Assembly (NCBI RefSeq): GCF_003550065.1
Contig: NZ_QXDC01000005.1
Location: 186,001-250,000 of the forward strand
Direction of reading: 5' to 3'
DNA: 64,000 bases
From: Hephaestia caeni
Lineage (GTDB): Bacteria; Pseudomonadota; Alphaproteobacteria; Sphingomonadales; Sphingomonadaceae
Below the pieces are notes generated by a model. It had not been told where the DNA came from. It saw nothing but the letters and a program-made list of their open reading frames with translations, and did not search any database. Below, in pieces: positions 3,699 through 50,064 of this stretch. Made by a program: the position numbers and the translations under genes. Each line of letters starts with the position of its first letter. The first letter of the stretch is position 1.

Positions 3699-3775
3699 GC
3701 GCCCGTAGCTCAGTTGGATAGAGCACGAGCCTTCTAAGCTTGTGGCCGCTGGTTCGAATCCAGCCGGGCGCGCCA
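3699..3775 (+). tRNA. tRNA-Arg (anticodon UCU)
   Basis: 77-nt cloverleaf with acceptor GCGCCCG / CGGGCGC, discriminator G and encoded CCA at 3773-3775; anticodon loop CTTCTAA at 3731-3737 with anticodon TCT at 3733-3735 on stem CGAGC/GCTTG; T-arm GGTTCGAATCC. Its 3' end faces the mobile element and is the left attachment site. The antisense strand of its 3' half also encodes the C terminus and stop codon (3734-3736) of the adjacent integrase. Confidence 0.98.
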
Positions 3776-16071: not shown

Positions 16072-16299
16072 TCACGTCTCAGCTTCCTCTACCGCCTCAT
16101 CGAGAAGGTCGGCGGGTCTCACGCCCAACGCTTCCGACAAATGCCACATCGTCAACAGCGTGACATTCTGCTGGCCCCGCTCCATGCCGCTCACATAGGC
16201 GCGGTCCACACCCATTTTCACGGCGACCGCTTCCTGACTCAGACCGGCCGCGACGCGATACCTCCTGACGTTGGCTCCAAAAATTCTGCGAATGTCCAT
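16072..16299 (-). CDS. XRE-family repressor (QseC-like position)
   Basis: 75 residues, essentially one helix-turn-helix domain: MDIRRIFGANVRRYRVAAGLSQEAVAVKMGV ... RAYVSGMERGQQNVTLLTMWHLSEALGV. Start taken as the ATG at 16299 (an in-frame TTG at 16317 is possible); no Shine-Dalgarno is evident and the predicted transcript start is within about 20 bp, so translation may be nearly leaderless. It is divergent from the small DUF2285 gene with a symmetric operator-like sequence between them. In ICEMlSymR7A the XRE protein QseC is divergent from the DUF2285 antiactivator gene qseM; this arrangement matches (inference by synteny). Confidence 0.8.
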   Translation of the reverse strand: MDIRRIFGANVRRYRVAAGLSQEAVAVKMGVDRAYVSGMERGQQNVTLLTMWHLSEALGVRPADLLDEAVEEAET

Positions 16300-16321
16300 C
16301 CGCAGGATAGGAGACAATCGA

Positions 16322-16473: not shown

Positions 16474-16749
16474 ATGGACGCGCCGATGACCGTCATTGCT
16501 TTCCAGGACCGTCCGCCCGACGGCGACCGCCTGACGGGTTACGACGAAAGCCATCTTGCTCTCTATATTCGGCTCCTCGATGCCGCCGCCGAAGGCGCCG
16601 ACTGGCGTGAGGCGGTGCAAATCCTTTTCGCGCTCGATCCGGACCGCGATCCCGACCGCGCCCGAATAGTTCATGACAGCCATCTCGCCCGCGCCCGCTG
16701 GATGACCACCACCGGCTATCGCGAGCTCCTCCGTCCCCGCGTGTCTTAA
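16474..16749 (+). CDS. small DUF2285-type protein (QseM-like antiactivator candidate)
   Basis: 91 residues (78 to 87 if started at MTVIAFQDRPP, 16486). The pattern LYIRLLDAAAEGADWREAVQILF ... SHLARARWMTTTGYRELL parallels the C-terminal DUF2285 domain of the gene at 16877 (ATYREIAGVLF ... DAQTMMHGGYLRLL). A stand-alone DUF2285 protein divergent from an XRE gene and next to a DUF6499-DUF2285 activator is the arrangement of the QseM antiactivator in ICEMlSymR7A, which sequesters FseA. Function here is inferred by that analogy; no Shine-Dalgarno is strong for either start. Confidence 0.65.
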   Translation: MDAPMTVIAFQDRPPDGDRLTGYDESHLALYIRLLDAAAEGADWREAVQILFALDPDRDPDRARIVHDSHLARARWMTTTGYRELLRPRVS

Positions 16750-16876: not shown

Positions 16877-17660
16877 ATGGCCGAGCCGCCGGATTGGCGA
16901 TTGCAGACAACCGAACGCGCGCTGAACCGCTTGGAGCGGCAAGGGTTTGCGTGGGAGTTCCTGCGCCGGAATCCCGACTATCGCAGCGACTATGACCGTC
17001 TGCGCAGCACGCCGGCCAGCCGGTCAAGCGCTTCATTGCCCCATAGGAGCGCCGCCGCCCCACAGTGGGGGCTGCGATTTCCTGCTCGACCCCGATCGCT
17101 CCGCTAACGAGACCGCGATCTTCTGGCGGCCCGAGGTTGTCGCCAGCGTTCTGATGCTTGAAGCCGCGCCGGCCGTCTTTCGCATGGCCCGGCGGCTCGA
17201 ACAACTCGACCTGACCCACGCCACATTGCACGCGCAGCCCGGAGGCGAAGGTGCGATCGTAATAGCCGATCCCGACGGTGATCATTATTTGGTCGCCGGA
17301 GCCATCGACCCGGCTCAGCCGCTCGCCATCCTGCTACCGCTCGACGACAACTTCCACATCCGCACCGAAGCGGCATTGCGATTCCAACGCCGCCTATTTG
17401 GACGTGCCGCCGGTCCGCTACCGCGCGCGCTCACGCTCACACCGCGCCACCGCTTGCGGCTGGTGCGCATGGTGCGCGCGCTCGATGGCCGATCCGCGGG
17501 CGCGACTTATCGCGAAATCGCCGGAGTGCTTTTCGACACGCCCCGGCAGTCCGCTGCCGAGTGGAAGACGTCGTCCATCCGCGCCCAGACGATCCGCTTG
17601 GTGAAGGATGCGCAGACGATGATGCACGGCGGCTATCTCCGTTTGCTCGCCGGCCGCTGA
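16877..17660 (+). CDS. DUF6499-DUF2285 excision activator (FseA-like), read by a +1 frameshift
   Basis: Two overlapping frames encode one protein. Frame 1 (16877-17107, 76 codons) begins MAEPPDWRLQTTERALNRLERQGFAWEFLRRNPDYRSDYDRL, the DUF6499 domain, and reaches QWGLRF at 17080. The continuation LLDPDRSANETAIFWRPEVV is in the +1 frame from 17082 and runs through a DUF2285 domain to 17660. Skipping C17081 at TTT-C joins them into about 260 residues; UUU to UUC re-pairing suits a +1 slip by tRNA-Phe. In ICEMlSymR7A the excision activator FseA is made from msi172-msi171 by programmed +1 frameshifting, so this is probably functional rather than a mutation. Start has AGGAG upstream (16865). A sequencing error remains possible. 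Confidence 0.72.
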
Positions 17661-17810
17661 CCCCGCCTCGGCTCCCCTCAAGCGTGACCGTAAGGGGGTA
17701 TGCGCACGCAGGGGCCTCACTTCGTCATCCACCCTGACGCCGATGGTTCGCCACCGTGGTCGCCGCTTCGCCACCGCACGCTGGAGGCGCAGCCGAAGCC
17801 CGGAGGCCCC

Positions 17811-18104
17811 ATGCCAGCAGCGCGACTCGACCCCCCGCCACGCTATCTCCGCACCCCTGAGGCTGCGCGCTTCCTCGGCCTGTCAGGTCGCACGCTCGAG
17901 AAGCATCGCACCTATGGCACCGGACCAGTCTATCGCAAGCTGGGCGGCCGCATTGTCTATGCCCTCGACGATCTTCAGGCCTGGGCGGATCGTGGCACGC
18001 GGCTTTCCACATCTGATCCGGGACATGACGTTGTCCATCCCGCCAAGCCGCACGCAAGGCTTGGCCATGGGAATGCCGCCCGTCGCGGTGGCGGTGCGTC
18101 ATGA
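17811..18104 (+). CDS. helix-turn-helix excisionase-like protein (RdfS-like)
   Basis: 97 residues with a MerR/AlpA-type winged HTH: PRYLRTPEAARFLGLSGRTLEKHRTYGTGPVYRKLGGRIVYALDDLQAWADRG; the last 35 residues are low-complexity. Proteins of this fold act as recombination directionality factors or as activators of ICE genes. Position matches rdfS of ICEMlSymR7A: directly after the FseA-like gene and at the head of the parA-traF-relaxase operon. GGAGG at 17802-17806 sets the start at 17811; the upstream in-frame region to 17700 lacks similarity. Overlaps parA by 4 bp. Confidence 0.78.
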   Translation: MPAARLDPPPRYLRTPEAARFLGLSGRTLEKHRTYGTGPVYRKLGGRIVYALDDLQAWADRGTRLSTSDPGHDVVHPAKPHARLGHGNAARRGGGAS

Positions 18105-18739
18105 TCGTCGCGCTCCTCAACCAGAAGGGCGGCGTCGGCAAGACGACGCTCGCGCTCCATCTCGCCGGCGAATGGGCCAGCAGGGGGAGGCGCGTCCTAC
18201 TCATTGACGCGGACCCACAGGGCTCCGCGCTCGATTGGTCGCAGCAGCGCGCGCGCGAAGGTTTACCGCGCCTGTTTGGTGTTGTCGGTCTAGCGCGAGA
18301 TACGCTTCACAACGAAGCGCCGGAACTGGCGCGAGGCGCCGATCATGTGGTGATCGACGGGCCACCGCGCGTTGCCGGCCTGATGCGATCAGCACTGCTT
18401 GCCGCCGACCTGGTGCTGATCCCGGTGCAGCCATCGCCCTTCGATGGCTGGGCCTCGGCGGAGATGCTGTCGCTGCTTGGCGAGGCGCGCATCTATCGTC
18501 CGCAGGTCGTGGCTCGTTTCGTGCTGAACCGATGCGGCGCGCGCACCATCATCGCCCGCGAGACGGCCGAGACGCTCGCCGACCATGATCCGCCGGTGCT
18601 CGCGTCCACCATCGGCCAGCGCGTCGCCTTCGCCGACACAGCGCGGTCTGGACGCCTCGTCTCGGAGATCAACGAGCACGGCCCGGCAGCGCGCGAGATC
18701 ACCGCGCTCTGCGCCGAGATCGGGAGGATCGCGCCATGA
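18101..18739 (+). CDS. parA: ParA family partition ATPase
   Basis: 212 residues. Deviant Walker A LNQKGGVGKTT at residues 6-16 with the signature Lys, switch I/II segments LLIDADPQGSALDW and HVVIDGPPRVAGLMRSALLAADLVLIPVQPSPFDGW. Typical ParA/VirC1-like length. It starts inside the HTH gene stop (ATGA) and its stop overlaps the next ATG, so it is part of a tightly coupled operon. Role: DNA segregation of the excised circle or recruitment of the relaxosome (VirC1-like); which one cannot be decided here. Confidence 0.92.
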   Translation: MIVALLNQKGGVGKTTLALHLAGEWASRGRRVLLIDADPQGSALDWSQQRAREGLPRLFGVVGLARDTLHNEAPELARGADHVVIDGPPRVAGLMRSALLAADLVLIPVQPSPFDGWASAEMLSLLGEARIYRPQVVARFVLNRCGARTIIARETAETLADHDPPVLASTIGQRVAFADTARSGRLVSEINEHGPAAREITALCAEIGRIAP

Positions 18740-18987
18740 CCGGGCGATCCCAGAAACGCGGCTTCACTGCACGTCCTGTCGATCCTGAGAGCTGGGTCAA
18801 AGCCTCCGATCCGCGACCCGCTCGGAACGGCGACGCCGCGTTCACGGCACGGCTCACGATCGATGTGACGCCCGACATGCGCGGCCAGATCAAGATCGCC
18901 GCGTTCCAGCGCGGCGTCACCGTCGCCGACATGCTGCGCGAACTGCTCGCCCGCGAATTTCCTCCAGCCGAAGGAGACACGCAATGA
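18736..18987 (+). CDS. ribbon-helix-helix protein, partner of ParA
   Basis: 83 residues; the second half (FTARLTIDVTPDMRGQIKIAAFQRGVTVADMLRELLAREF) reads as a CopG/ribbon-helix-helix dimerisation domain following a basic N terminus. 4-bp overlaps with parA on the left and DUF2840 on the right. Small RHH proteins next to ParA often provide the centromere-binding function; that is the likely role here. Confidence 0.65.
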   Translation: MTGRSQKRGFTARPVDPESWVKASDPRPARNGDAAFTARLTIDVTPDMRGQIKIAAFQRGVTVADMLRELLAREFPPAEGDTQ

Positions 18988-19493
18988 ACGGCGCTGGTCA
19001 TTTGCGCGGCGTGCCGGCGGCGCTCCTCTTCGACGGTCTGACTCGCGTCGAACTGACCTGGATCGAGAAGAGGGTCGAATACTGGATTCGGTTCGGCCAG
19101 GACGTCCAGGAACAGATTCTCGACCGACGCCGGCGCGTGCTCAGCTTCCCGCCCCACAGTGTCTTCGCCTTTGTCCGTTGGGCGGCAAACGACTTCGGCA
19201 CGATCATCTCGCGCATCGACATCGTGCGCGCGATCTCGCCCGGCGAGCACTACCAGACTCTGCCCTTCGTGCGTCCTGGTGGCGACATCCTGCTGAGGAT
19301 GGACGGCTGGCCAAAGGTCGAGCGCGTACTGCAGATCGTCGACGCCATCGAGTCGGTCGGCATCAATCCGGCTGAGGTCTCACCGCATCATTGGCGGCAT
19401 GTTCATAATCGTCTCGCTGCCGGCCAGGAACCGCGCAGCTACACGGCGGAGCAGCATCGGGCCATCCTTCTGCGCCGGAAGGTCGAGCCATGA
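18984..19493 (+). CDS. DUF2840 domain protein
   Basis: 169 residues: LTRVELTWIEKRVEYWIRFG at the N terminus, VFAFVRWAANDFGTIISRIDI centrally and a long C-terminal segment rich in His/Arg. DUF2840 genes almost always lie between parA and traF in Trb-type ICEs and plasmids; their activity is unknown. Overlapping starts on both sides place it in the same transcript. Confidence 0.82.
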   Translation: MNGAGHLRGVPAALLFDGLTRVELTWIEKRVEYWIRFGQDVQEQILDRRRRVLSFPPHSVFAFVRWAANDFGTIISRIDIVRAISPGEHYQTLPFVRPGGDILLRMDGWPKVERVLQIVDAIESVGINPAEVSPHHWRHVHNRLAAGQEPRSYTAEQHRAILLRRKVEP

Positions 19494-20035
19494 CCCGCTT
19501 CGGCTACGTCATGACGACGTACTTCACCGTGATCTTGATCGGTGGCCTGTCCTTCATCCACATCACGCCCAGGCTGATCTGGAACGCGTCCGCCAGCACG
19601 CCGGTCGGCCTCTATTCAATCGATCGGTCGCCGCAGCTCGAAGTGACCGACCTGGTCGCCGTAAACGCACCCGAGCCGCTCGCATCGTTCCTCGCTGAGC
19701 GCGGCTATCTGCCTCGCGGCGTCCCGCTCCTGAAACGCGTTGCGGGTCTATCGGGGCAACAAGTCTGCCGCACCGGCGCACACGTCACCGTAGACGGCAT
19801 CCCGGTCGGCGACGCGCTGCCGCGCGACCGTCTCGGCCGCCATCTCCCCGTTTGGCAGGGCTGCCGCCGCATCGCCGCCGACGAGATCTTCCTCATGAAC
19901 TGGTCCGTGGAGGACAGCCTGGACGGTCGCTACTTCGGTCCAGTTTCCCGCGGCTCGGTCATCGGACGAGCAACCCCTCTCTACACCGACGAAGACGGCA
20001 ACGGCCGCTTCGAATGGCGCGCCGCGACGCGGTGA
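19490..20035 (+). CDS. traF: conjugal transfer signal peptidase TraF (S26 family)
   Basis: 181 residues with one N-terminal membrane helix (residues 8-24). Catalytic Ser36 in NASASTPVGLY and Lys82 in LLKRVAGLSG match the S26C/TraF peptidases, which mature and cyclise the TrbC pilin. The substrate trbC is present at 26799. 4-bp overlap with the DUF2840 gene. Length is normal for the family. Confidence 0.92.
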   Translation: MTRFGYVMTTYFTVILIGGLSFIHITPRLIWNASASTPVGLYSIDRSPQLEVTDLVAVNAPEPLASFLAERGYLPRGVPLLKRVAGLSGQQVCRTGAHVTVDGIPVGDALPRDRLGRHLPVWQGCRRIAADEIFLMNWSVEDSLDGRYFGPVSRGSVIGRATPLYTDEDGNGRFEWRAATR

Positions 20036-20079
20036 AGACGCGCCCATTCCCATTTCACCGCACCACACAGGAGGCTTCC

Positions 20080-20415
20080 ATGCCGCAGATCGGAGAGTTC
20101 ACGCGCACCAAGACCGGCTATGCCGGCCGCATCCGAACGGTCGCTCTCGACATCGAGATGGTGCTCGTCCCCGCCGAGCATTCCGACACCGAGAACGCGC
20201 CGGACTATCGCATTCACCTTCGCGACGACGGCGGTCCGGAGATCGGCGCCGGATGGAGGCGAACCGGCGAGAAGGCCGGCGACTACGTTTCCTTGCAGAT
20301 CGACGACCCGTCACTCCGCCAACCGATCCGCGCCAACCTGTTCCAGTCCGGCGACGACAAGTCCGCCTGGGGCCTGCACTGGAACCGTCCGCCGAAGCGC
20401 AATGAGCGGGACTGA
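20080..20415 (+). CDS. DUF736 family protein (second copy)
   Basis: 111 residues, MPQIGEFTRTKTGYAGRIRTVALDIEMVLVP ... DYRIHLRDDGGPEIGAGW ... DYVSLQIDDPSLRQPIRANLF. Clearly paralogous to 15108-15434 but diverged and embedded in the traF operon rather than preceded by the structured leader. AGGAGG lies 8 bp before the ATG at 20080. Function unknown. Confidence 0.88.
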   Translation: MPQIGEFTRTKTGYAGRIRTVALDIEMVLVPAEHSDTENAPDYRIHLRDDGGPEIGAGWRRTGEKAGDYVSLQIDDPSLRQPIRANLFQSGDDKSAWGLHWNRPPKRNERD

Positions 20416-21196
20416 CGGCATGCCGACGCGCCGCCCATCGCGCAGGCAACCGGTGGAGACCGGGCGGACACGCGCCGCCCGGCATCTCTCCGTCCTTCTC
20501 CTTTCCGGCCTGCTGATCGTCAGCGGATCACCGGCCACCGCGCTGGCGCAGAACGCGACGACCTCGCGCGCAAGCCCAGCCGATCCGTTCGCCGTCTTCA
20601 TCGCCGAGGCTTCGCAACGCTTCGGCATTCCGGAGCGCTGGATTCGCGCCGTCATGCGTGCCGAAAGCGCGGGCGACGTGCGCGCGATCTCATCCGCGGG
20701 CGCAATGGGTCTGATGCAGATCATGCCCCATACATGGACGGAGCTTCGCACACGCCACCGACTGGGGCGCGATCCTTACAGTCCGCGCGACAACATCCTC
20801 GCGGGCGCGGCCTACCTGCGCGAGATGTATGATCGCTATGGTTCGCCAGGCTTCCTGGCCGCCTACAATGCGGGGCCGGGACGCTACGAGGAGTATCTCG
20901 CCGGTCGCCCGCTCCCGGCCGAGACCCGCGCCTACGTCGCCGCGCTGGTCCCTTTATTCGGCGGCGGTGATCTCCCCAGTCCAGTCGCCGTCGCCGTCGC
21001 CGATCCGCCACAGGCTTGGACCCGCGCCCCGCTGTTCGTCGCGCGTATCGAGCGCATCTCGGCTGCCGATCCAGCGCAAACCCCGCACCATCCGGACGAC
21101 GCTCCTGCGACACCTCCCGTGCGCGAGGTTTCCGCGATCATGCCGCAGTCCTCCGGCCTGTTCGTCGCGCGGCCTGATGGTCGAGGGCCGCAATGA
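20402..21196 (+). CDS. lytic transglycosylase (VirB1-like)
   Basis: 264 residues. An N-terminal signal sequence (HLSVLLLSGLLIVSGSPATALAQ) leads into an SLT domain: IPERWIRAVMRAESAGD with catalytic Glu, ISSAGAMGLMQIMPHTW, and PGFLAAYNAGPGRYEEY. Enzymes of this type open peptidoglycan locally for assembly of the transfer apparatus. The proline-rich tail after ~190 is typical of ICE homologues. The start at 20402 overlaps the DUF736 gene; 20420 (MPTRRPSRR) is an alternative. Confidence 0.9.
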   Translation: MSGTDGMPTRRPSRRQPVETGRTRAARHLSVLLLSGLLIVSGSPATALAQNATTSRASPADPFAVFIAEASQRFGIPERWIRAVMRAESAGDVRAISSAGAMGLMQIMPHTWTELRTRHRLGRDPYSPRDNILAGAAYLREMYDRYGSPGFLAAYNAGPGRYEEYLAGRPLPAETRAYVAALVPLFGGGDLPSPVAVAVADPPQAWTRAPLFVARIERISAADPAQTPHHPDDAPATPPVREVSAIMPQSSGLFVARPDGRGPQ

Positions 21197-21284
21197 CCGC
21201 GCTCACTCGAGATCGCGGTCTGGCGTACTCCGGCGCATCATGGCGTGCGTGGAAGGGGGAGCGAGGCAACACGACCGCACGATG

Positions 21285-21311
21285 GCAGGATAAAGGGGCG
21301 CGATGTGCGCC
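21285..21311. other. candidate origin of transfer (oriT nic region)
   Basis: On the minus strand TATCCTGC (21292-21285) matches the IncP-type nic consensus YATCCTG|C. Adjacent is an inverted repeat GGCGC-GATGT-GCGCC (21297-21311). It lies in the 244-bp gap 21197-21440 immediately upstream of the relaxase, where MOBP-type oriTs usually occur. A second short dyad, GATTT/AAATC (21392-21408), is nearer the relaxase. Confidence 0.55.
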
Positions 21312-21440
21312 TCGGTTCGGTTGTGCTTTTTCAAGGGCTTATGCAGCAAATTCGCGAGGTGCGCCTGTCTGGCGCAGTCTGCGGCTTCAGCGATTTCATA
21401 AGCAAATCAGCGCCATCGCGCGATGTGCAGGCGCGCGACC

Positions 21441-23186
21441 ATGACCGACGAGAACGATTTCCGAATCCGGCCAGGCCGCATCCGCTCGACGCGCGTGCAG
21501 CGCGCCAGACCCTTCATCGCCCAGGCGCTCGCCGCCGCCCAGCGGGCCGGCGGATCGGTTTCCCGCAAGGGGACGATCGGGCCGGGCCACCGCTCCCGGT
21601 TCGGCCGCGGTCAGCGCGCATCAGTGCAGGCCAACCGGCTCATCACCTCCCGCTCGCGCGGCGCCGTCGTCAAGGCGCGCGTCGTCCGTCACGCCGGACG
21701 CGGCGCGCCGCTCGCCACCCATCTCAACTATCTGCGCCGCGAGGGCGTCACCCGGGACGGAGAGAAGGCGAGGCTGTTCGGCCCTGGTACGGACCATGCC
21801 GATCCGAAGGCGTTCGCGCAGCGATGCGAGGACGACCGGCATCATTTCCGGTTCATCGTCTCGCCGGACGACGCCGTGGAGATGTCGGACCTCAAGACCT
21901 TCGCCCGCGATTTGGTCGGCCAGATGGAGAAGGACCTCGGCACCAAGCTCGAATGGGTCGCCGTCGATCACTGGAACACCGAGCATCCGCACGTCCACCT
22001 GATTGTGCGTGGCGTGCGCGAGGACGGCGAGAACCTCGTCATCTCCCGCGACTATATCAAGGAAGGCATGCGCGATCGGGCGCGGGATCTGATCACGCGG
22101 GAGTTGGGTCCGCGCACGGATCACGAAATCCGTCGCACCCTGGAACGTCAGATCGACGCCGAACGCTGGACCAACCTCGATCGCCAGCTCACGCGCGATG
22201 GCTGTCGCACCGGCGTCATCGACCTTGCGCCGCATCCCAACCGGCAGCCCGACGAATTCCACGCCCTCAAGGTCGGACGCCTGCGCAAGCTCGAATCGCT
22301 TGGGCTTGCCGACCAGGTTGGCCCCGGCCAGTGGATTGTGTCCGAGAATGCCGAGACGACTCTGCGCGAGCTGGGCGAACGCGGCGACATCATCAAGCGA
22401 ATCCATCGCGGCCTTTCGGAACGCGGCATCGAGCGCGGCACGGCCAGCTACGTGCTGGCAGGCGAAAGCCTGGACGATTCTGTCGTCGGCCGTCTGGTGG
22501 CTCGCGGCCTCGACGACGAGCTGAAGGGCACCGCCTATGCCGTGGTCGACGGCGCGGACGGACGGACCCATCATATCAAGCTGCCCGATCTCGACGCCGC
22601 CGGGGACGGCGCGCCGGGCTCGATCGTCGAGCTGCGCAAGTTCGACGATGCCCAGGGCCGGCGCCGCGTCGCCCTGGCGGTCCGCTCGGACCTCTCGATC
22701 GAACGGCAGATCACCGCAGCCGGCGCCACCTGGCTTGACCGGCAAGCTATCGCCCGTGAACCGATCGCACTCGGCGGCGGCGTCGGCGGCTTTGGCGCAG
22801 AGGTGCGCGAGGCGCTGGACCGGCGCGCCGAGCACCTGATCGCGCAAGGTCTGGCGGAGCGTCAGAGCCGTGGCGTCAGCTTCAGCCGCGACCTGATCGA
22901 GACGCTGCGCCGGCGCGAGCTGGACGCGCTCGCCGATAAGCTGTCGGCGGAAAGCGGGCGGCCGCTGACGCGTGCTTCGACGGGTGAGTATGTCGCCGGC
23001 ACCTACAGGCAGCGCTTCGCGCTCGCCTCCGGCCGCTTCGCGATGATCGATGACGGCCTCGGCTTCCAGCTCGTTCCCTGGTCTCCATCACTCGAAAAGC
23101 AGCTCGGCCGTCATGTCTCCGGTCTCGCGCGAAGCGATGGCGGCATCGACTGGAGCTTCGGCCGCAAGCGGGGGCTCGGCCTGTGA
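21441..23186 (+). CDS. relaxase / mobilisation nuclease with DUF3363 (RlxS type, MOBP)
   Basis: 581 residues. The N-terminal nuclease has RFIVSPDDAVEM, the three-His motif in WNTEHPHVHLIVRG and an upstream catalytic Tyr candidate in THLNYLRREGV; the DUF3363 C-terminal part follows from about residue 250. It nicks oriT and pilots the strand into the recipient. Start at 21441 (MTDENDFRIRPGRIRS), since the 6 extra codons upstream lack conservation. Same class as RlxS of ICEMlSymR7A. Followed 31 bp later by the coupling protein gene. Confidence 0.92.
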   Translation: MTDENDFRIRPGRIRSTRVQRARPFIAQALAAAQRAGGSVSRKGTIGPGHRSRFGRGQRASVQANRLITSRSRGAVVKARVVRHAGRGAPLATHLNYLRREGVTRDGEKARLFGPGTDHADPKAFAQRCEDDRHHFRFIVSPDDAVEMSDLKTFARDLVGQMEKDLGTKLEWVAVDHWNTEHPHVHLIVRGVREDGENLVISRDYIKEGMRDRARDLITRELGPRTDHEIRRTLERQIDAERWTNLDRQLTRDGCRTGVIDLAPHPNRQPDEFHALKVGRLRKLESLGLADQVGPGQWIVSENAETTLRELGERGDIIKRIHRGLSERGIERGTASYVLAGESLDDSVVGRLVARGLDDELKGTAYAVVDGADGRTHHIKLPDLDAAGDGAPGSIVELRKFDDAQGRRRVALAVRSDLSIERQITAAGATWLDRQAIAREPIALGGGVGGFGAEVREALDRRAEHLIAQGLAERQSRGVSFSRDLIETLRRRELDALADKLSAESGRPLTRASTGEYVAGTYRQRFALASGRFAMIDDGLGFQLVPWSPSLEKQLGRHVSGLARSDGGIDWSFGRKRGLGL

Positions 23187-23217: not shown

Positions 23218-25206
23218 ATGTCGGCCACGAAGATTCTCTGGGGACAGATTCTCGCCGTCTTCGTGATCGTGCTGACCACGACCTGGACCGCGACCCAGTG
23301 GACGGCATGGCAGCTAGGCTTCCAGCCGCAACTCGGCCGGCCATGGTTCGAGGCATTTGGCTGGCCAGTCTACCATCCGCCGGCCTTCTTCTGGTGGTGG
23401 TACTTCTACGACGCCTATGCGCCTTCGGTTTTCGTCGAGGGCGCCTACATCGCCGCATCCGGCGGCTTCATTGCCATCGCGGTCGCCATCGGCATGTCAG
23501 TGTGGCGAGCCCGCGAGGCCAAAAATGTCGAAACCTATGGTTCGGCGCGCTGGGCGCGAGCCGACGAGGTGCGCGCCGCCGGCCTGCTTGGGCCCGATGG
23601 CGTGGTGCTCGGCAGGTTCGATCGCGCCTATCTTCGCCATGACGGGCCAGAGCATGTGCTGTGCTTCGCGCCGACCCGCTCCGGCAAGGGCGTCGGCCTG
23701 GTCGTGCCCTCGCTGCTGACCTGGCCGGGCTCCGCCATCGTTCACGACATCAAGGGCGAGAACTGGCAGCTCACTTCCGGCTTCCGCGCCCAACATGGCC
23801 GCGTGCTGCTGTTCGATCCCACGAATGCGAAGTCGTCCGCTTACAACCCGCTGCTCGAAGTCCGCCGCGGCGAATGGGAGGTCCGCGACGTCCAGAACAT
23901 CGCCGACATCCTGGTCGATCCCGAAGGGAGTTTGGAACGCCGCAATCATTGGGAGAAGACGTCCCACGCACTCCTCGTCGGCGCTATCCTGCACGTTCTC
24001 TACGCTGAGACCGACAAGACACTCGCAGGCGTCGCCGCCTTCCTCTCCGACCCCAAGCGGCCGATCGAGTCGACGCTCGCCGCCATGATGAAGACGGCGC
24101 ATCTCGGCGAAGCTGGACCGCACCCGGTCATCGCATCGGCCGCGCGCGAGCTGCTGAATAAGTCCGACAATGAGCGGTCGGGCGTCTTGTCGACCGCGAT
24201 GTCGTTTCTCGGACTCTATCGCGATCCCGTGGTGGCGGATGTTACGCGCCGTTGCGACTGGCGCATCACAGACATTGTTGGCGGAGCGCGACCGTCGACG
24301 CTCTACCTCGTCGTGCCGCCATCTGACATCGCGCGCACCAAGCCGCTGATCCGGCTTATCCTCAATCAGATCGGACGCCGACTGACGGAGGATCTCAACG
24401 CCAAAGGCAGGCGGCACCGGCTGCTGCTCATGCTCGACGAGTTTCCCGCACTCGGGCGCCTCGACTTCTTCGAGAGCGCCTTGGCGTTCATGGCGGGCTA
24501 TGGGCTGAAGAGCTTCCTGATCGCCCAGTCGCTCAATCAGATTGAGAAAGCGTATGGTCCGAACAACTCGATCCTCGACAACTGCCATGTGCGCGTGAGC
24601 TTCGCGACCAATGACGAGCGCACGGCCAAACGCGTCTCCGACGCCCTCGGCACCGCGACCGAGATGCGGGCAATGCGAAACTACGCGGGGCACAGGCTGA
24701 GCCCATGGCTCGGCCATCTGATGGTTTCGCGATCGGAGACGGCGCGCCCACTGCTGACGCCGGGTGAGGTGATGCAGCTCCCGCCCGCCGACGAGATCGT
24801 GATGGTGGCCGGTACGCCGCCGATACGCGCGAAGAAAGCCCGCTATTTCGAGGATCGCCGGTTTCAGGAACGCGTCCTGCCACCACCCGCGCTCGCGAGG
24901 CCAGCCGCGGGAAAGCCGGACGATTGGAGCGCCCTGCCATTGCCGTCGCGGCCGCAACCCGATGCAGCCGCGCAGCAGGACGGCACCGGCGATGACGACT
25001 CGACCGGCTCCGAACGGCGTCAGCAACCGGAGCTGACCGCGGTAAAGCCTGTCGAGAGGAAGGCGCCGATCGACAACGAGTTCGAGCTCGATGGTCCCGA
25101 CGACGCCGATGACGACGACGCCGCGCGCGCAGGCCGGCTGAATCAGGTGATGCAGGGCGTCGCGCGGCAGGTCTCGCTCGATCCCAGTGACGGGATGGAC
25201 CTCTGA
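23218..25206 (+). CDS. traG: conjugal transfer coupling protein TraG/VirD4
   Basis: 662 residues. Two N-terminal membrane helices (about 8-28 and 75-98); Walker A APTRSGKGVGLVVPS near residue 150; Walker B LLMLDEFPALGRLDF near residue 405; RPLLTPGEVMQLP near residue 515. T4CP ATPase linking the relaxosome to the T4SS. The acidic, low-complexity C terminus after ~580 is common. AAAGGA precedes the ATG at 23218. Confidence 0.95.
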   Translation: MSATKILWGQILAVFVIVLTTTWTATQWTAWQLGFQPQLGRPWFEAFGWPVYHPPAFFWWWYFYDAYAPSVFVEGAYIAASGGFIAIAVAIGMSVWRAREAKNVETYGSARWARADEVRAAGLLGPDGVVLGRFDRAYLRHDGPEHVLCFAPTRSGKGVGLVVPSLLTWPGSAIVHDIKGENWQLTSGFRAQHGRVLLFDPTNAKSSAYNPLLEVRRGEWEVRDVQNIADILVDPEGSLERRNHWEKTSHALLVGAILHVLYAETDKTLAGVAAFLSDPKRPIESTLAAMMKTAHLGEAGPHPVIASAARELLNKSDNERSGVLSTAMSFLGLYRDPVVADVTRRCDWRITDIVGGARPSTLYLVVPPSDIARTKPLIRLILNQIGRRLTEDLNAKGRRHRLLLMLDEFPALGRLDFFESALAFMAGYGLKSFLIAQSLNQIEKAYGPNNSILDNCHVRVSFATNDERTAKRVSDALGTATEMRAMRNYAGHRLSPWLGHLMVSRSETARPLLTPGEVMQLPPADEIVMVAGTPPIRAKKARYFEDRRFQERVLPPPALARPAAGKPDDWSALPLPSRPQPDAAAQQDGTGDDDSTGSERRQQPELTAVKPVERKAPIDNEFELDGPDDADDDDAARAGRLNQVMQGVARQVSLDPSDGMDL

Positions 25207-25217
25207 GCGTGGTGAAC

Positions 25218-25649
25218 ATGAAGATTCCGAAGAAGCAGCGCCTCTCGGTCTATCTCGATCCGGATATCACGAAAGCGCTCGCCGCTTATGCCGCGCGTCG
25301 CGATCAATCGCGATCCCTGGTCGCGGAAGCGGCCATCGCATCCTTCCTATCGCCCGACGCCGCCGAGCGCCAAGAGGCCGCGACCACCAAGCGATTGGAC
25401 CAGCTCGACCGGCGCATGACGCGCATGGAACGCGACCTTGGCATTTCCGTGGAAATGCTCGCAGTGTTCGTCCGCTTCTGGCTCACCACCAACCCGCCAC
25501 TTCCGGAGCCAGCCCAGGCGGCCGCACGCGCACAGGCCGGCGAGCGGTACGACGCCTTCGTCGCCGCACTCGGGCGGCGACTCGCGAAGGGACCGAAAGT
25601 GCGTGAGGAGATTTCGGACGACGTAGTAGGTGTCCCGGGCGCGGAATAA
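25218..25649 (+). CDS. CopG-type (ribbon-helix-helix) regulator upstream of trbB
   Basis: About 143 residues: MKIPKKQRLSVYLDPDITKALAAYAARRDQSRSLVAEAAI is a CopG ribbon-helix-helix; a coiled coil (AATTKRLDQLDRRMTRMERDLGIS) and a hydrophobic helix follow. Such genes sit between traG and trbB in many Trb-type elements and are likely local repressors. In-frame GTG codons at 25209 and 25212 could also serve as the start. Confidence 0.75.
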   Translation: MKIPKKQRLSVYLDPDITKALAAYAARRDQSRSLVAEAAIASFLSPDAAERQEAATTKRLDQLDRRMTRMERDLGISVEMLAVFVRFWLTTNPPLPEPAQAAARAQAGERYDAFVAALGRRLAKGPKVREEISDDVVGVPGAE

Positions 25650-25721
25650 TCATCGCGCCGGGCATCGCAAGAGTTTGTCAGTTCCGCCGTCGCCCTCTCT
25701 TTGTACGCCAGAGCACTACGA

Positions 25722-25813
25722 CCCCGTTCTGCTTGTTGTCATGCCCTGATTTCTGCCTCTTCTACTCATCCCCGATCCAGGGCCGCTTGTTTGCGGTCCC
25801 GCGCAGAACGGGG
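25722..25813 (+). promoter_or_regulatory. long-range inverted repeat over the trbB ribosome binding site
   Basis: CCCCGTTCTGC (25722-25732) and GCAGAACGGGG (25803-25813) are perfect 11-bp inverted arms, 70 nt apart, in the 169-bp gap before trbB. The right arm includes the GGGGA that serves as Shine-Dalgarno for the ATG at 25819, so pairing would mask it. Could be an operator or an RNA switch for the trb operon. Confidence 0.55.
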
Positions 25814-25818
25814 ACGAC

Positions 25819-26802
25819 ATGGCGGTTTCTCACCAGCAATCAGAGGCGATCCTTCGAGGCGCGCGCATGTTGCGCACGGCCCTCGGCCCCGCCATCGCCG
25901 GATTCCTGGAAGACCCGTCGATCGTCGAGGTGATGCTCAATCCCGATGGGCGGCTCTGGATCGACCGGCTGTCCGAGGGACTCTCCGATACCGGAGCGCG
26001 CCTGTCGCCCGCGGACGGCGAGCGCATCGTCCGCCTGGTCGCGCATCATGTCGGCGCCGAGGTTCATTCCGGTTCACCGCGCGTTTCGGCCGAGTTGCCC
26101 GAGACGGGGGAGCGCTTCGAAGGCCTTCTGCCGCCCGTCGTCGCCGCGCCGGCATTCGCGATCCGCAAACCTGCCGTCGCCGTCTTCACGCTCGCTGACT
26201 ATGTCGCCGCCGAGATCATGTCCGCCGAACAGGCGGAGGTGCTCCGCCGCGCCGTCGCGGACCGCCGCAACATCCTCGTCGCCGGCGGCACCTCGACCGG
26301 CAAGACCACGCTCACCAACGCCTTGCTCGCCGAGGTATCGAAGACCTTCGACCGCGTGGTTCTGATCGAGGACACGCGCGAGCTGCAATGCGCCGCGCCC
26401 AACCTCGTAGCCATGCGCACCAAGGATGGCGTCGCATCGCTGTCCGATCTCGTCCGCTCCTCGCTTCGCTTGCGCCCTGATCGCATTCCGATCGGAGAGG
26501 TGCGCGGCGCCGAGGCGCTGGATTTGCTCAAGGCCTGGGGGACGGGCCACCCGGGCGGCATCGGCACGATCCACGCCGGCACCGCGCTCGGCGCGCTGCG
26601 CCGCCTTGAGCAACTCATTCAGGAAGCCGTCGTCACCGTCCCGCGCGCGCTGATCGCCGAGACCATCGATCTCGTCGCGGTGCTCAGCGGTCGCGGCTCG
26701 ACCCGTCGCCTCGCCGAACTCGCCCGCGTCGAAGGCCTACAGCCGGACGGCGACTACCGCGTCATCCCCGCAACCCAGCCCGCCCCAGGAGAACCCGAAT
26801 GA
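25819..26802 (+). CDS. trbB: T4SS ATPase TrbB (VirB11-like)
   Basis: 327 residues. VirB11/GspE-like hexameric ATPase: N-terminal [18 protein letters not shown], Walker [17 protein letters not shown] near residue 155, Asp box [11 protein letters not shown], Walker B/His box [22 protein letters not shown], and [12 protein letters not shown]. Powers pilus biogenesis and substrate transfer. First gene of the trb operon; its stop overlaps the trbC start. Confidence 0.95.
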
Positions 26803-27131
26803 TCCGCCATGCCCTGCGCGCTCGCCGTCATATCGCGACGGCCGCGTCCGTCGCCGTCTTCAGCATGATGCTTGCGCCAGCAGCCCATGCTTCCGGCTCT
26901 TCGATGCCGTGGGAAGCGCCGCTGCAATCGATCCTCGAATCCATCGAGGGGCCTGTGGCCAAGATCATCGCTGTGATGATCATCATCATCACAGGGCTAA
27001 CGCTAGCCTTCGGCGATACGTCAGGCGGCGCGCGGAAGCTGATCCAGATCGTCTTCGGCCTGTCGATCGCCTTCGCCGCGTCGAGCTTCTTCCTGTCCTT
27101 CTTCTCCTTCGGCGGCGGAGCGCTCGTCTGA
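26799..27131 (+). CDS. trbC: conjugal transfer pilin TrbC (VirB2-like)
   Basis: 110 residues: cleavable signal (SVAVFSMMLAPAAHAS) and two hydrophobic helices (about 48-68 and 80-100), the VirB2/TrbC pilin layout. Expected to be processed and cyclised by TraF (19490). Overlaps trbB by 4 bp and trbD by 1 bp. Confidence 0.92.
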   Translation: MIRHALRARRHIATAASVAVFSMMLAPAAHASGSSMPWEAPLQSILESIEGPVAKIIAVMIIIITGLTLAFGDTSGGARKLIQIVFGLSIAFAASSFFLSFFSFGGGALV

Positions 27132-27412
27132 TGGCGAGCCTGACCGACAGCGTCGGCGACGTGCCAGGCTTCGCCGTCCCGGTCCATCGGGCGCTCACCG
27201 AGCACATCCTGCTCGGCGGCGCGCCGCGCTCCATCGCGATCCTCAACGGCACGCTGGCGGCGGCGCTCGGCCTTGGCCTGCGGCTCTGGCTGGTCGGTCT
27301 CGGGCTCTGGGCGATCGGGCATTTCGCGGCGGTGTGGGCGGCCAAACGCGATCCACAATTCGTCGACGTGGTGCGCCGTCACCTGCGCATCCCCGGCCAT
27401 CTAAGCGCGTGA
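27131..27412 (+). CDS. trbD: TrbD (VirB3-like) inner-membrane component
   Basis: 93 residues, VPGFAVPVHRALTEHILLGGAPRSIAILNGTLAAALGLGLRLW, one or two membrane helices and RDPQFVDVVRRHL at the end, the VirB3 signature. Start at 27131 follows the trbC stop as TGATG, indicating coupling. Confidence 0.92.
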   Translation: MASLTDSVGDVPGFAVPVHRALTEHILLGGAPRSIAILNGTLAAALGLGLRLWLVGLGLWAIGHFAAVWAAKRDPQFVDVVRRHLRIPGHLSA

Positions 27413-27419
27413 GGCCCCG

Positions 27420-29858
27420 ATGATGCACCTTGCCGAATATCGCCGAACCTCAACCCGTCTCGCGGACTTCCTGCCCTGGGCCGCGCTCGTCGGCGAGGGC
27501 ATCGTCCTCAACAAGGACGGCAGCTACCAACGCACCGCCCGCTTTCGCGGTCCCGACCTCGACTCCGCGGTGCCGGCCGAGCTCGTCGCCGTGGCCGGCC
27601 GGCTCAACAATGCTTTCCGCCGGCTCGGCTCGGGATGGGCGATTTTCGTCGAGGCCCAGCGCCATGGCGCCGGCACCTATCCGGCGAGCCGCTTTCCCGA
27701 TGCCGCGTCGGCTCTGGTCGACGCCGAACGCAAGGCCGATTTCGAGGAAGACGCCTCGCACTTCGAGTCGAGCTACTTCCTGACCTTCGTCTACCTGCCG
27801 CCGGCCGAGGACGCCGCCCGCGCCGAAAGCTGGCTCTATGAAGGCAAGGCCGATAACGGTCTCGACCCTCGTGAGGCGTTGCGCGGCTTCGCCGATCGCA
27901 CCGACCGCGTGCTCCAGCTCATCGAGAACTTCATGCCGGAATGCGCATGGCTCGATGGCGGCGAGACGCTGACCTATCTGCATTCGACCGTCTCGACCAA
28001 ACGCCACCGCGTGCGTGTGCCCGAGACGCCGATGTATCTCGACGCGTTGCTGGCCGATCAACCGCTCACCGGCGGACTGGAGCCGCGGCTCGGCGACGCG
28101 CATCTCCGCATCCTTACCATTGTCGGTTTTCCGACCGCGACCACGCCCGGGCTGCTCGACGACCTCAACCGGCTCGCCTTTCCCTATCGCTGGTCGACAC
28201 GCGCCGTCCTACTGGACAAGACCGACGCCACCAAGCTGCTAACCAAGATACGGCGGCAGTGGTTCGCCAAGCGCAAGAGCATCATGGCGATCCTCAAGGA
28301 GGTGATGACCAACGAGGCTTCGGTGCTCGTCGACACCGATGCGGCGAACAAGGCGGCCGATGCCGACCTCGCGCTCCAGGAACTCGGCGCGGACTATGCG
28401 GGTCAGGCCTATGTCACCGCGACGGTCGCTGTCTGGGACGCCGATCCACGCATCGCAGCCGAGAAGCTCCGGTTGGTGGAGAAGATCGTTCAAGGCCGCG
28501 ACTTCACCGCGATGGCGGAAACGATCAACGCCGTCGACGCCTGGCTTGGCTCGCTGCCGGGCCATGTCTACGCCAACGTCCGGCAGCCGCCGATCTCGAC
28601 GCTCAATCTCGCCCATATGATTCCGCTGTCGGCGGTGTGGGCGGGGCCGGAACGGGACGAGCATTTCGGGCAACCCCCCTTGCTCTACGGCAGGACCGAA
28701 GGCTCGACCCCGTTCCGGTTTTCCCTTCATGTCGGCGATGTCGGTCACACGCTCGTCGTCGGGCCGACCGGCGCCGGCAAATCGGTGCTCCTGGCGCTGA
28801 TGGCGCTGCAGTTCCGGCGCTATCCCGGCTCCCAGGTCTTCGCCTTCGACTTCGGCGGAAGCATCCGAGCTGCAGCGCTCGCGATGGGCGGCGACTGGCA
28901 CGATCTCGGCGGCGGCCTGACAGAAGGCGCGGCTGACAGCGTCTCGCTGCAACCGCTCGCCGGCATCCACCACGTGCCGGAGCGCGCGTGGGCGGCTGAT
29001 TGGATCGTCGCGATCTTGCAGCGCGAGGGCGTGACGATCGCGCCAGAGGTGAAGGAATACATCTGGACGGCGCTGACCTCGCTGGCGAGCGCGCCCGTCG
29101 TCGAGCGCACCCTGACCGGACTCGCCGTCCTCCTTCAATCGAACGATCTCAAACAGGCGCTGCGGCCCTATTGCGTCGGGGGCGCCTATGGCCGGCTGCT
29201 CGACGCCGAGAGCGAGCATCTTGGCGAAGCCGTTGTGCAGGCGTTCGAGACCGAGGGCCTGATCGGCACGGCCGCCGCGCCGGCCGTGCTCGCCTATCTC
29301 TTCCACCGCATCGAGGACCGCCTCGACGGCAGCCCAACGCTGCTCATCGTCGACGAAGGCTGGCTGGCGCTCGATGACGAGGATTTCGCCGGCCAGCTCC
29401 GCGAGTGGTTGAAGACGCTCCGCAAGAAGAACGCGTCCGTCGTCTTCGCCACCCAATCGCTCTCCGACATCGACAGTTCTGCGATCGCGCCGGCCATTGT
29501 CGAGAGCTGCCAGACGCGGCTGCTGTTACCGAACGAGCGCGCGATCGAACCGCAGATCACCGCGATCTACCGCCGCTTCGGGCTCAACGATCGCCAGATC
29601 GAGATCCTCGCCCGCGCGATGCCGAAGCGCGACTACTACTGCCAATCCCGCCGAGGCAACCGACTCTTCGAACTCGGTCTGTCCGACGTGGCGTTGGCGC
29701 TCTGCGCCGCCTCCTCAAAAACCGATCAGGCGGCGATCGAGCGCGTCATCGCAGAGCACGGCCGCGAAGGTTTCCTGCCGGCCTGGCTGCGTCTGCGCGG
29801 CGTCGCCTGGGCCGCCGACCTCATCCCCAACCTCAATAACCTGGAGACCCAGCCATGA
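27420..29858 (+). CDS. trbE: T4SS ATPase TrbE (VirB4-like)
   Basis: 812 residues. CagE/TrbE N-terminal domain (LAEYRRTSTRLADFLPWAALVGEGIVLNKDGS) and a C-terminal AAA domain with Walker A VVGPTGAGKSVLLALM near residue 448 and Walker B LIVDEGWLALDDEDF near 640, then VVFATQSLSDI. Largest ATPase of the apparatus. Two adjacent ATGs (27420, 27423) are possible starts. Overlaps trbJ by 4 bp. Confidence 0.95.
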   Translation: MMHLAEYRRTSTRLADFLPWAALVGEGIVLNKDGSYQRTARFRGPDLDSAVPAELVAVAGRLNNAFRRLGSGWAIFVEAQRHGAGTYPASRFPDAASALVDAERKADFEEDASHFESSYFLTFVYLPPAEDAARAESWLYEGKADNGLDPREALRGFADRTDRVLQLIENFMPECAWLDGGETLTYLHSTVSTKRHRVRVPETPMYLDALLADQPLTGGLEPRLGDAHLRILTIVGFPTATTPGLLDDLNRLAFPYRWSTRAVLLDKTDATKLLTKIRRQWFAKRKSIMAILKEVMTNEASVLVDTDAANKAADADLALQELGADYAGQAYVTATVAVWDADPRIAAEKLRLVEKIVQGRDFTAMAETINAVDAWLGSLPGHVYANVRQPPISTLNLAHMIPLSAVWAGPERDEHFGQPPLLYGRTEGSTPFRFSLHVGDVGHTLVVGPTGAGKSVLLALMALQFRRYPGSQVFAFDFGGSIRAAALAMGGDWHDLGGGLTEGAADSVSLQPLAGIHHVPERAWAADWIVAILQREGVTIAPEVKEYIWTALTSLASAPVVERTLTGLAVLLQSNDLKQALRPYCVGGAYGRLLDAESEHLGEAVVQAFETEGLIGTAAAPAVLAYLFHRIEDRLDGSPTLLIVDEGWLALDDEDFAGQLREWLKTLRKKNASVVFATQSLSDIDSSAIAPAIVESCQTRLLLPNERAIEPQITAIYRRFGLNDRQIEILARAMPKRDYYCQSRRGNRLFELGLSDVALALCAASSKTDQAAIERVIAEHGREGFLPAWLRLRGVAWAADLIPNLNNLETQP

Positions 29859-30616
29859 TCTTCCGTCGCTCACGCGCGGCGCTTCTTGCCGCATCGATCC
29901 TTTCCGTCCCCGTGGCGATGTCGCCCGTGATGATCCAGCCGGCGTCCGCGCAATGGATCGTCTACGACCCGACGAACTACGTGCAGAATGTTCTCTCCGC
30001 AGCTCGTGCCCTGGAGCAGATCAACAACCAGATCACCTCGCTTCAGAATGAAGCGACGATGCTGATCAACCAGGCGCGAAACCTCGCGAGCCTGCCTTAC
30101 TCCTCGCTTCAGCGCCTGCAGCAGTCCGTGCAGCGGACGCAGCAACTCCTCGGCCAGGCGCAGCGCATCGCCTACGACGTCCAGCAGATCGACCAGGCCT
30201 TCACCTCCACCTACGGCAATGCGTCGATGTCGGCGTCCGACCAGCAACTCGTAGCGCAAGCGCGCGAGCGCTGGCAGAACACCGTCGGCGGCCTGCAGGA
30301 CGCCATGCGGGTGCAGGCCGGTGTCGTCGGCAACATCGACACCAACCGCGCCGAGATGTCGGCGCTCATCGGCCAAAGCCAGGGCGCGACCGGCGCCTTG
30401 CAGGCGGCGCAGGCAGGCAATCAGCTCCTCGCGCTCCAGGCGCAGCAGCTCGCCGATCTCACGGCCGTCGTCGCTGCGAACGGACGAGCTCAAGCGCTGA
30501 CCGAAGCGGAGCGTGCGGCGGCTGCCGAGCAGGGCCGTGAGCAGCGCCGCCGCTTCCTGACGCCCGGCGTCGGCTATCAGCCCGGCAACGCCCGCATGTT
30601 CCCGAATGGCAACTAA
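29855..30616 (+). CDS. trbJ: TrbJ (VirB5-like) T4SS protein
   Basis: 253 residues with a signal sequence (LLAASILSVPVAMSPVMIQPASAQ), then WIVYDPTNYVQNVLSAARALEQINNQITSLQNEA, a hallmark of TrbJ, and long coiled coils. Periplasmic minor pilus component. Stop is 22 bp before the trbK ATG. Confidence 0.93.
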   Translation: MIFRRSRAALLAASILSVPVAMSPVMIQPASAQWIVYDPTNYVQNVLSAARALEQINNQITSLQNEATMLINQARNLASLPYSSLQRLQQSVQRTQQLLGQAQRIAYDVQQIDQAFTSTYGNASMSASDQQLVAQARERWQNTVGGLQDAMRVQAGVVGNIDTNRAEMSALIGQSQGATGALQAAQAGNQLLALQAQQLADLTAVVAANGRAQALTEAERAAAAEQGREQRRRFLTPGVGYQPGNARMFPNGN

Positions 30617-30638
30617 GGCCCCCCAAGAGGATCGTGTC

Positions 30639-30929
30639 ATGGACGGCAAGCTTCTAGCGCGCCTCGGCGCCGTCGTCTTCGTCGCCGTCGCCATCACCGC
30701 GACGGCGATCGAGATGACCCGGAAAGAGGAAGACCCCGCCGGCCAAGCGCTGCAGCCGGTTGAAGTCACGCCGGCTGATCCGCTGCGCCAGGCGCAACGG
30801 CGCTGCCAACTGCTCGGCGAGGCCGCCGCGCGGGATACCGAATGTCTGCGCACCTGGGCCGAAACCCGGGACCGATTCCTTGGCGCTACGCCCGCGCCAG
30901 CATCGCCCCAGCCGCAGGACGGACGGTGA
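30639..30929 (+). CDS. TrbK-alt, candidate entry-exclusion protein
   Basis: 96 residues with one N-terminal helix (LLARLGAVVFVAVAITATAIEM) and a short exposed domain with the Cys pair ...RRCQLLGEAAARDTECLRTW. This is the TrbK-alt form found between trbJ and trbL in alphaproteobacterial elements; a role in entry exclusion is assigned by position. Start at 30639 (MDGKLLARLG), preceded by AAGAGGA. Confidence 0.82.
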   Translation: MDGKLLARLGAVVFVAVAITATAIEMTRKEEDPAGQALQPVEVTPADPLRQAQRRCQLLGEAAARDTECLRTWAETRDRFLGATPAPASPQPQDGR

Positions 30930-30932
30930 ACC

Positions 30933-32285
30933 ATGGGCGGCACCGGCGTCATCGACCAGTTCCTCGGCGTATTCACCAGCTACATCGATAGCGGCTTCGG
31001 CCTGCTCGGCGGCGAGGTGGCGTTCATCGCAACCACGCTGATCGTCATCGACGTGACATTGGCCGCGCTGTTCTGGAGCTGGGGCGCCGACGACGACATC
31101 ATGGCGCGCCTGGTCAAGAAGACGCTGTTCGTCGGCGTCTTCGCCTACATCATCGGCAACTGGAACAACCTCGCGCGCATCGTGTTCGAAAGCTTCGCCG
31201 GGCTCGGCCTGAAGGCGTCGGGCACGGGATTTACCGTCGACGATCTCATGCGTCCCGGCCGTGTTGCGCAGACCGGCCTCGACGCCGGCCGGCCGCTGCT
31301 CGATTCCATCTCCAACCTGATGGGCTGGATCGCCTTCTTCGAGAACTTCATCCAGATCGCCTGTCTGTTGTTCGCCTGGGCGCTGGTGCTGCTCGCCTTC
31401 TTCATTCTCGCCGTCCAGCTCTTCGTCACCCTGATCGAGTTCAAGCTGACGACGCTCGCCGGCTTCGTGCTGATCCCGTTCGGCCTGTTCGGCAAATCCG
31501 CGTTCATGGCCGAGCGCGTCCTCGGCAACGTCATCTCGAGCGGCATCAAGGTGCTGGTCCTCGCCGTCATCATCGGCATCGGCTCGACGTTGTTCTCTCA
31601 ATTCACCGCCGGGTTCGCTGGCCAGACGCCCACGATCGACCAGGCCATGGCGATCGTGCTCGCCGCACTGTCGCTGCTGGGTCTCGGCATCTTCGGTCCC
31701 GGTATCGCCAACGGCCTCGTCTCGGGTGGTCCGCAGCTCGGCGCCGGCGCCGCGGTCGGCACCGGACTCGCGGCGGGCGGCATAGTGGCGGCGGGCGCTG
31801 CGACTGTTGGGGCCGTGGCATCTGGCGGCGGCGCCCTTGCTGGAGGAGCCGCCGCCGCCGCCCGTGGCGGTGCGGCGATGGCGGGCGGCGCTTCGACCGC
31901 TTACAGCCTTGGCGCCGCTGGCCAGTCGGGCGCCGCAGGCGTGGCGTCAGGCTTGGGCGGGGTCGCACGCGCAGCCGGCGGCGCGGCGGCTTCGCCCCTC
32001 CGCCGGACGGCCTCGCGCGCCGCCGATAGCATGAAGTCGAGCTTCTCCGAAGGCGCCAAGTCCGCGTTCGCCGCCACCGGCGGCACATCGACCATGGGTA
32101 CGATCGGCGGAAGCGCGGCCGAGGCTGCGCCATCGCAGGCTGCTGACGGGCCGCCGGCCTGGGCCCGCCGCATGAAGCGTTCTCAAGCCCTGAGCCACGG
32201 TGTGACCGCGGCCGCCCATGCCGTGCGCAGCGGCGACAGCCATGGCGGCGGCTCTTCCATCAATCTCTCCGAAGGCGATCGCTGA
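30933..32285 (+). CDS. trbL: TrbL (VirB6-like) inner-membrane protein
   Basis: 450 residues: five or more membrane helices up to about residue 270, including GVIDQFLGVFTSYIDSGFGLLGGEVAF at the N terminus, then a long Ala/Gly/Ser low-complexity tail typical of TrbL. Polytopic channel component. TGATG-type junction with trbF. Confidence 0.93.
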   Translation: MGGTGVIDQFLGVFTSYIDSGFGLLGGEVAFIATTLIVIDVTLAALFWSWGADDDIMARLVKKTLFVGVFAYIIGNWNNLARIVFESFAGLGLKASGTGFTVDDLMRPGRVAQTGLDAGRPLLDSISNLMGWIAFFENFIQIACLLFAWALVLLAFFILAVQLFVTLIEFKLTTLAGFVLIPFGLFGKSAFMAERVLGNVISSGIKVLVLAVIIGIGSTLFSQFTAGFAGQTPTIDQAMAIVLAALSLLGLGIFGPGIANGLVSGGPQLGAGAAVGTGLAAGGIVAAGAATVGAVASGGGALAGGAAAAARGGAAMAGGASTAYSLGAAGQSGAAGVASGLGGVARAAGGAAASPLRRTASRAADSMKSSFSEGAKSAFAATGGTSTMGTIGGSAAEAAPSQAADGPPAWARRMKRSQALSHGVTAAAHAVRSGDSHGGGSSINLSEGDR

Positions 32286-50010: not shown

Positions 50011-50064
50011 TCATAGTGCCCCAGCGGAAACATAGTTATCAGTTTCATCTACGCTGGGGCGCCA
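50011..50064 (-). repeat. outer att repeat encoding the integrase tail (attR)
   Basis: Minus-strand codons again read WRPSVDETDNYVSAGAL plus TGA (50013-50011). The ends form a 9-bp inverted repeat GCCCCAGCG (50018-50026) / CGCTGGGGC (50052-50060). GCGCCA at 50059-50064 equals the tRNA-Arg end at 3770-3775, and host sequence resumes at once, with glpD 22 bp downstream. Confidence 0.85.

Follow-up and report, generated by a model that had tools for sequence, protein, structure and literature searches.

The closest described counterpart of the locus analyzed here is FseA, the excision activator of the rhizobial symbiosis island ICEMlSymR7A of Mesorhizobium japonicum, whose DUF6499 and DUF2285 domains are encoded in two ORFs (msi172-msi171) joined by a +1 shift near a WGL/UGGGGG stretch. 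This shift has been published as ribosomal frameshifting (PMC10359603, PMC5009743), a stall has been suggested for the UGGGGG noted there, and a published survey of 4709 fseA homologues places about 61% of them in two ORFs that need such programmed +1 frameshifting (PMC10359603). The island likewise carries genes of the rdfS, traF, and rlxS types, and fseA in R7A-type elements follows traI2 under TraR (PMC5882170). FseA of R7A is blocked by QseM, which binds its DUF6499 domain, i.e., the msi172-encoded part, of which residues 15-55 suffice (PMC10359603), and a divergent XRE gene beside qseM is the arrangement described for QseC (PMC8627217). The RovC protein of Yersinia (PDB 6xz5) shows the same domain order as FseA but is one continuous chain, and it activates a type VI secretion system (PMC10359603). 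The literature drawn upon, in each case an excerpt of the cited paper, also includes PMC11963761.

We investigated a comparable gene in a window of 64,000 nucleotides, the whole stretch of Hephaestia caeni DNA that was analyzed. Its parts are as follows.

16877..17107, + strand: frame-0 ORF of 76 aa plus TAA, DUF6499 with an exact AWEFLRRN motif (PF20109, E 4.6e-20)
17066..17071, + strand: UGGGGG (Trp-Gly), Shine-Dalgarno-like; UUU starts 6 nt later
17075..17077, + strand: CGA codon preceding the putative slip codon
17078..17081, + strand: putative slip site UUU-C
17082..17660, + strand: remainder of fseA in the +1 frame, comprising the middle region and the DUF2285 DNA-binding domain (PF10074, E 9.3e-38)

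The frame-0 ORF begins with an ATG at 16877, reads through W-G-L-R-F, and ends with a TAA at 17105-17107, while the DUF2285 ORF lies in the +1 frame relative to it and ends at 17660. Skipping a single base in TTT-C (17078-17081) produces the join WGLRF-LLDPD (in context, ...QWGLRF-LLDPDRS...) and a protein of 260 aa, in which a Pfam profile search recovers both PF20109 and PF10074 (DUF2285, also named RovC_DNA-bd); the last 76 aa, in the DUF2285 part, carry a net charge of +9. The original prediction that the two domains are joined only via a one-base skip at TTT-C is borne out by the ORFs, the Pfam matches, and the join, and the two-frame organization of fseA is confirmed. It had further named C17081 as the skipped base; the skip within TTT-C stands, but the choice of C does not, as omission of any one of U17078-C17081 gives the same peptide, R-F-L, and the identity of the skipped base is therefore not readable from the product. 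Likewise, the GGGGG tract that it placed about 8 nt upstream is present (17067-17071), but its true spacing is 6 nt to UUU and 9 nt to C17081. The proposed likeness to FseA of R7A extends to the +1 direction, to the place after DUF6499 near the UGGGGG-coded WGL, and to the domain makeup (PMC10359603).

A comparison of the joined protein with solved structures reveals a match to RovC over the whole protein (E 2.8e-7), aligned on both sides of the join: the better stretch (query 22-85, 18.6 bits) spans the join, and the second (query 197-256, 12.5 bits) falls within DUF2285. On their own, the parts do far less well, the +1 ORF matching RovC with E 0.43 and the frame-0 ORF with E 0.019, behind two designed proteins in the ranking. 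FseA here differs from RovC in being split between two frames.

To place this gene in its family, homologues were gathered from whole genomes of the genus, family, order, class, and phylum, and the frame of the N-terminal versus the C-terminal domain was assigned in each locus by profile search; the 230 loci yielded 196 distinct N+C pairs, with locus lists biased to strong matches except in the genus sample, for which nearly every place found was taken. The +1 arrangement is kept in 161 of the 196 pairs, a further 34 are in frame (a count that, like the 28 fused codon rows discussed below, still includes the in-frame pairing of L034, which looks like chance or decay), and one (L132) has another offset. 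Among the +1 loci, TTT-C stands in frame 0 at the overlap of the open frames in 150 and TTT-T at the usual place in 9 of the remaining 11, the two without UUU having AGT (L026) and TGT (L107). Thus, UUU followed by C or U (UUU-Y) marks the join in 159/161 loci, against a background of 25% UUU among the Phe codons elsewhere in those genes, and this bias together with the shared offset is more than chance would give. By these sequence comparisons, the +1 offset is not a lone sequencing error. The genus sample comprises 151 genomes, of which 63 have matches; its 100 pairs include 77 with +1 at UUU-Y, 1 with +1 elsewhere, and 22 in frame. In the window's own genome, there are seven fseA pairs (L001-L007), five split at TTTC and two in frame; with its seven fseA-like genes, this one genome houses several such elements or remnants of them, and cross-regulation among them is conceivable. 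A scan of named genomes confirmed 28 loci (overlapping the 196-pair set, with three sharing the genomes of L044-L046), and a motif search at the join showed UUU-Y in all 28 (27 C, 1 U), with an open +1 reading after it. TTTC is also found in two named rhizobial plasmids from 78 plasmid records found, and no relative was confirmed in viral contigs. The 34 in-frame pairs imply that part of the family can do without the shift.

The UUU-Y bias also bears on whether the two ORFs might be separate proteins, with the DUF2285 ORF translated from its own start. The best start of the +1 ORF, TTG 16947, is preceded at a distance of about 10 nt by a Shine-Dalgarno-like GGAG, and the Azorhizobium homologues rihF1b and rihF1a are described as separate genes with their own start and end codons and no frameshift (PMC9601964, as excerpted). 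However, this TTG is TCG in all seven relatives in which it could be placed (two more were unplaced), a +1-frame start with a Shine-Dalgarno sequence occurs near the site in only 14/159 loci, and separate translation accounts neither for UUU-Y nor for the RovC alignment that spans the join. We thus consider this arrangement improbable.

Closer to the window, its clade counts six rows with the window itself among them, and every one is split at UUU-C. These five relatives and the 28 named ones, from separate assemblies, share the form split at UUU-Y rather than having one continuous frame. With the window as reference, in comparisons that share history, substitutions in the five relatives number 32/17/73 on codon positions 1/2/3 before the site in frame 0 and 104/50/225 after the site in frame +1, which reveals coding constraint in both frames, each on its own side of the site. 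The position of the frame-0 stop is not conserved in the six clade members (8, 8, 8, 26, 9, and 9 codons after UUU). The split relatives and the substitution pattern speak against a dead gene or an assembly error, i.e., a single base inserted at 17078-17081 into a once-continuous gene: in-frame homologues do exist, two of them in the window's own genome, but relatives in other genera with 83-90% aa identity display the same split arrangement, and third-position substitutions prevail in each part in its own frame, making such an insertion very improbable. The named relatives at this identity are Mesorhizobium comanense, Sphingosinicella soli, a Reyranella MAG, Sphingomonas sp. SRS2, and three further MAGs, a spread indicating that fseA has moved between orders. 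Three loci (L237, L238, and L239), from MAGs labeled Alphaproteobacteria, Rhizobiaceae, and Mesorhizobium, encode an identical joined FseA of 259 aa, which suggests either very recent transfer or mis-binning.

Upstream of the site, less-used codons are markedly preferred in the 143 loci that have Trp at the fourth codon ahead of UUU (UUU-C and UUU-U pooled). Here GGG accounts for 106/142 Gly codons (16% in the rest of these genes), UUG or UUA for 83/130 Leu codons (12%), and CGA for 35/42 Arg codons directly before UUU (8.5%). With one vote per cluster of 50% protein identity, the figures are GGG in 67% of 42, CGA in 90% of 16, and UUR in 61% of 39 clusters; CGA is unfixed among close relatives, the window's clade having CGA in 2/6 and CGC in 4/6. 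Fused homologues have GGG in 9/28 (Fisher p 3e-5 versus split, kinship uncorrected), and predicted anti-Shine-Dalgarno pairing stands at -8.3 kcal/mol in the 143 split loci versus -6.2 in 23 fused ones. Strong pairing in both forms implies that part of it stems from the Trp-Gly codons themselves. A stimulatory role of the G tract is thus borne out only in part, since Trp-Gly yields a similar tract in frameshift-free homologues. Downstream mRNA structure found no support as a general stimulator: samples of 80 split loci gave a mean z of -0.28 to -0.39, with -0.37 in 23 fused loci and +0.19 at a control place 200 nt on, and the window itself gave 0.03, -1.62, and -1.44 from three start points. 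No description of the CGA and UUR biases, of moved slip sites, or of repeated split/fused change was found in the excerpts of the FseA literature examined, though we do not claim novelty for them.

The GGGGG and UUU runs at the site raise another possibility, namely, that RNA polymerase adds or drops a base there, resulting in RNA that is in frame; the protein made from such slipped RNA would be identical, except that a slip at the G run would alter the residues from there up to the join. Against this, neither run is long, 36/142 anchored loci have a Gly codon other than GGG, and the R7A case was published as ribosomal (PMC10359603, PMC5009743). Consequently, we regard transcriptional slippage as extremely improbable. 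As to how the ribosome would shift, the codon before UUU varies (Arg, His, Ser, Cys, and others), whereas UUU itself, with C or U after it, hardly changes. Slippage on the preceding codon would account less well for this pattern than would tRNA-Phe re-pairing in the P site, which is most likely the mechanism. In prfB, the gene for release factor 2, a +1 frameshift also has a Shine-Dalgarno-like tract upstream, with a shorter spacer, and the slip precedes a stop codon. Here, by contrast, UUU is followed in frame 0 by CCU, and across the 150 UUU-C loci the waiting codon is never a stop (CGC in 92, CCC in 35, CCT in 11, and other sense codons in 12).

The evolution of split and fused forms was traced on a quick tree of 193 of the 196 rows (omitting L132, the in-frame pairing of L034, and a single +1 row whose C domain is short). 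At least eight changes between the two forms are required, four of them forced by well-supported branches, with gain and loss indistinguishable. Gain or loss of a single base at the Phe codon would suffice to interconvert them, and decay is possible in single cases. In L100, L118, and L226, TTTC lies one codon downstream of its usual place, and in L185 and L191, it lies two codons downstream; the latter two adjoin a group of eight fused members, most with TTC at the matching Phe.

The genes around fseA form a module, in the order divergent XRE repressor, QseM antiactivator, fseA, rdfS-like gene, relaxase, and T4SS genes.

16072..16317, - strand: XRE/HTH_3 regulator, candidate QseC, divergent from the QseM-like gene (PF01381, E 1.5e-14)
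16474..16749, + strand: QseM-like antiactivator, a lone DUF2285 (PF10074, E 1.9e-6; 7uqt_A, E 1.9e-21; net charge -4)
17811..18104, + strand: rdfS-like HTH_17 gene, presumed excision factor and FseA target (PF12728, E 4.7e-8 on 17700-18104)
18101..23186, + strand: genes for ParA, RHH, DUF2840, S26 (TraF-like) peptidase, SLT, and RlxS-like relaxase
23224..35192, + strand: coupling protein and Trb-type secretion genes

The rdfS-like gene, the RlxS-like relaxase, and the trb genes accompany fseA in the element as expected for the FseA family; the start of the rdfS-like gene at 17811 is inferred and the gene has no NCBIfam match, and the relaxase scores 577 bits with the RlxS model, under its cut-off of 850. 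The product of 16474-16749 matches QseM of R7A (PDB 7UQT) over residues 10-86, and both are negatively charged. The arrangement differs from that of R7A in that fseA adjoins the rdfS-like gene and directly follows the QseM-like gene, which in R7A is not adjacent to fseA; there, fseA follows traI2 under TraR (PMC5882170, as excerpted). The window also has a serine recombinase gene, while R7A uses IntS. Across the survey, a QseM-like gene lies upstream in 80/159 +1 loci versus 8/33 in-frame loci (three short-flank loci dropped), and L132 also has one adjacent. A link between the frameshift and qseM adjacency was not retained, as the four independent pairs that the tree supplies on supported branches do not suffice to decide it. 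An XRE homologue lies divergently upstream in 45/87 loci with a QseM-like gene and in 2/103 without it (six short-flank loci dropped). No FseA box (inverted hexamers 15-16 bp apart) emerged before rdfS, 74 upstream regions scoring 4.69 of 6 versus 4.67 in shuffles, and a candidate dyad in the window is not kept in relatives. Profile matches revealed no LuxI or LuxR on this contig; the genome has two LuxI and nine LuxR matches, and a different fseA copy, on C2, has one pair about 10 kb away. The quorum-sensing setup of R7A, with traR and traI2 upstream of fseA, is absent here and is not a feature of every homologue; quorum-sensing induction may act on this fseA in trans.

Elsewhere in the window, 5.6 kb containing merR- and merBA-like genes are flanked by a 54-bp direct repeat (44361-44414 and 50011-50064), whose copies agree at 50/54 positions and have inverted ends (CCAGCG...CGCTGG). 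The 38-base core of this repeat has exactly two copies in the whole genome; the repeats may mark the ends of a nested element. The 767-aa ORF at 46030-48333 contains an alkylmercury lyase (MerB) at residues 128-255 and a full mercury(II) reductase (MerA) at 306-767, and its predicted product is a MerB-MerA fusion. A tRNA-Arg(TCT) gene (3699-3775) contains the end of the large serine recombinase gene (3734-5428, - strand). The tRNA was rejected as an att repeat, there being no second exact copy of at least 16 nt of it within the window.

Based on the anatomy, its conservation, and the neighboring genes, we propose that this locus encodes an FseA activator of excision and transfer, read in two frames via a rare +1 shift (probability roughly 0.88), and that it looks like a real further example of the mechanism known from ICEMlSymR7A. 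Most ribosomes would stay in frame and make the 76-aa DUF6499 protein; in a minority, P-site tRNA-Phe on UUU, with CCU waiting, would re-pair with UUC, and reading on in the +1 frame would add the DNA-binding DUF2285 domain. The whole FseA, presumably binding DNA as a dimer, would then activate the genes immediately downstream, the rdfS-like one and those for conjugation, unless blocked by QseM, encoded directly upstream beside its own presumed repressor. From the sequence and by analogy with R7A, we infer that slippage occurs and is rare, and likewise the P-site mechanism, the FseA targets, and the QseM block; by the same analogy, the activator would be scarce by design, as originally predicted. 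A further role could be envisaged for the unshifted 76-aa product. It includes the region matching msi172 residues 15-55 and so keeps the QseM-binding part of FseA, and an excess of it could act as a decoy soaking up the QseM encoded next door. No mention of titration or a decoy role for the Msi172 product was found in the excerpted text of PMC10359603, and we consider this role unlikely. If it were true, one slip site would set two quantities, little activator and much protector, and cells would commit only when decoy plus activator outrun QseM.

The two-frame fseA extends, by anatomy and conservation, the published transfer control to a sphingomonad element with mercury resistance genes, and such activators are again found to be split or missed by automatic annotation. 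The survey offers testable points on how +1 slip sites function and evolve, such as which codons before UUU-Y matter and how a change of a single base could make a fused gene out of a frameshifted one.
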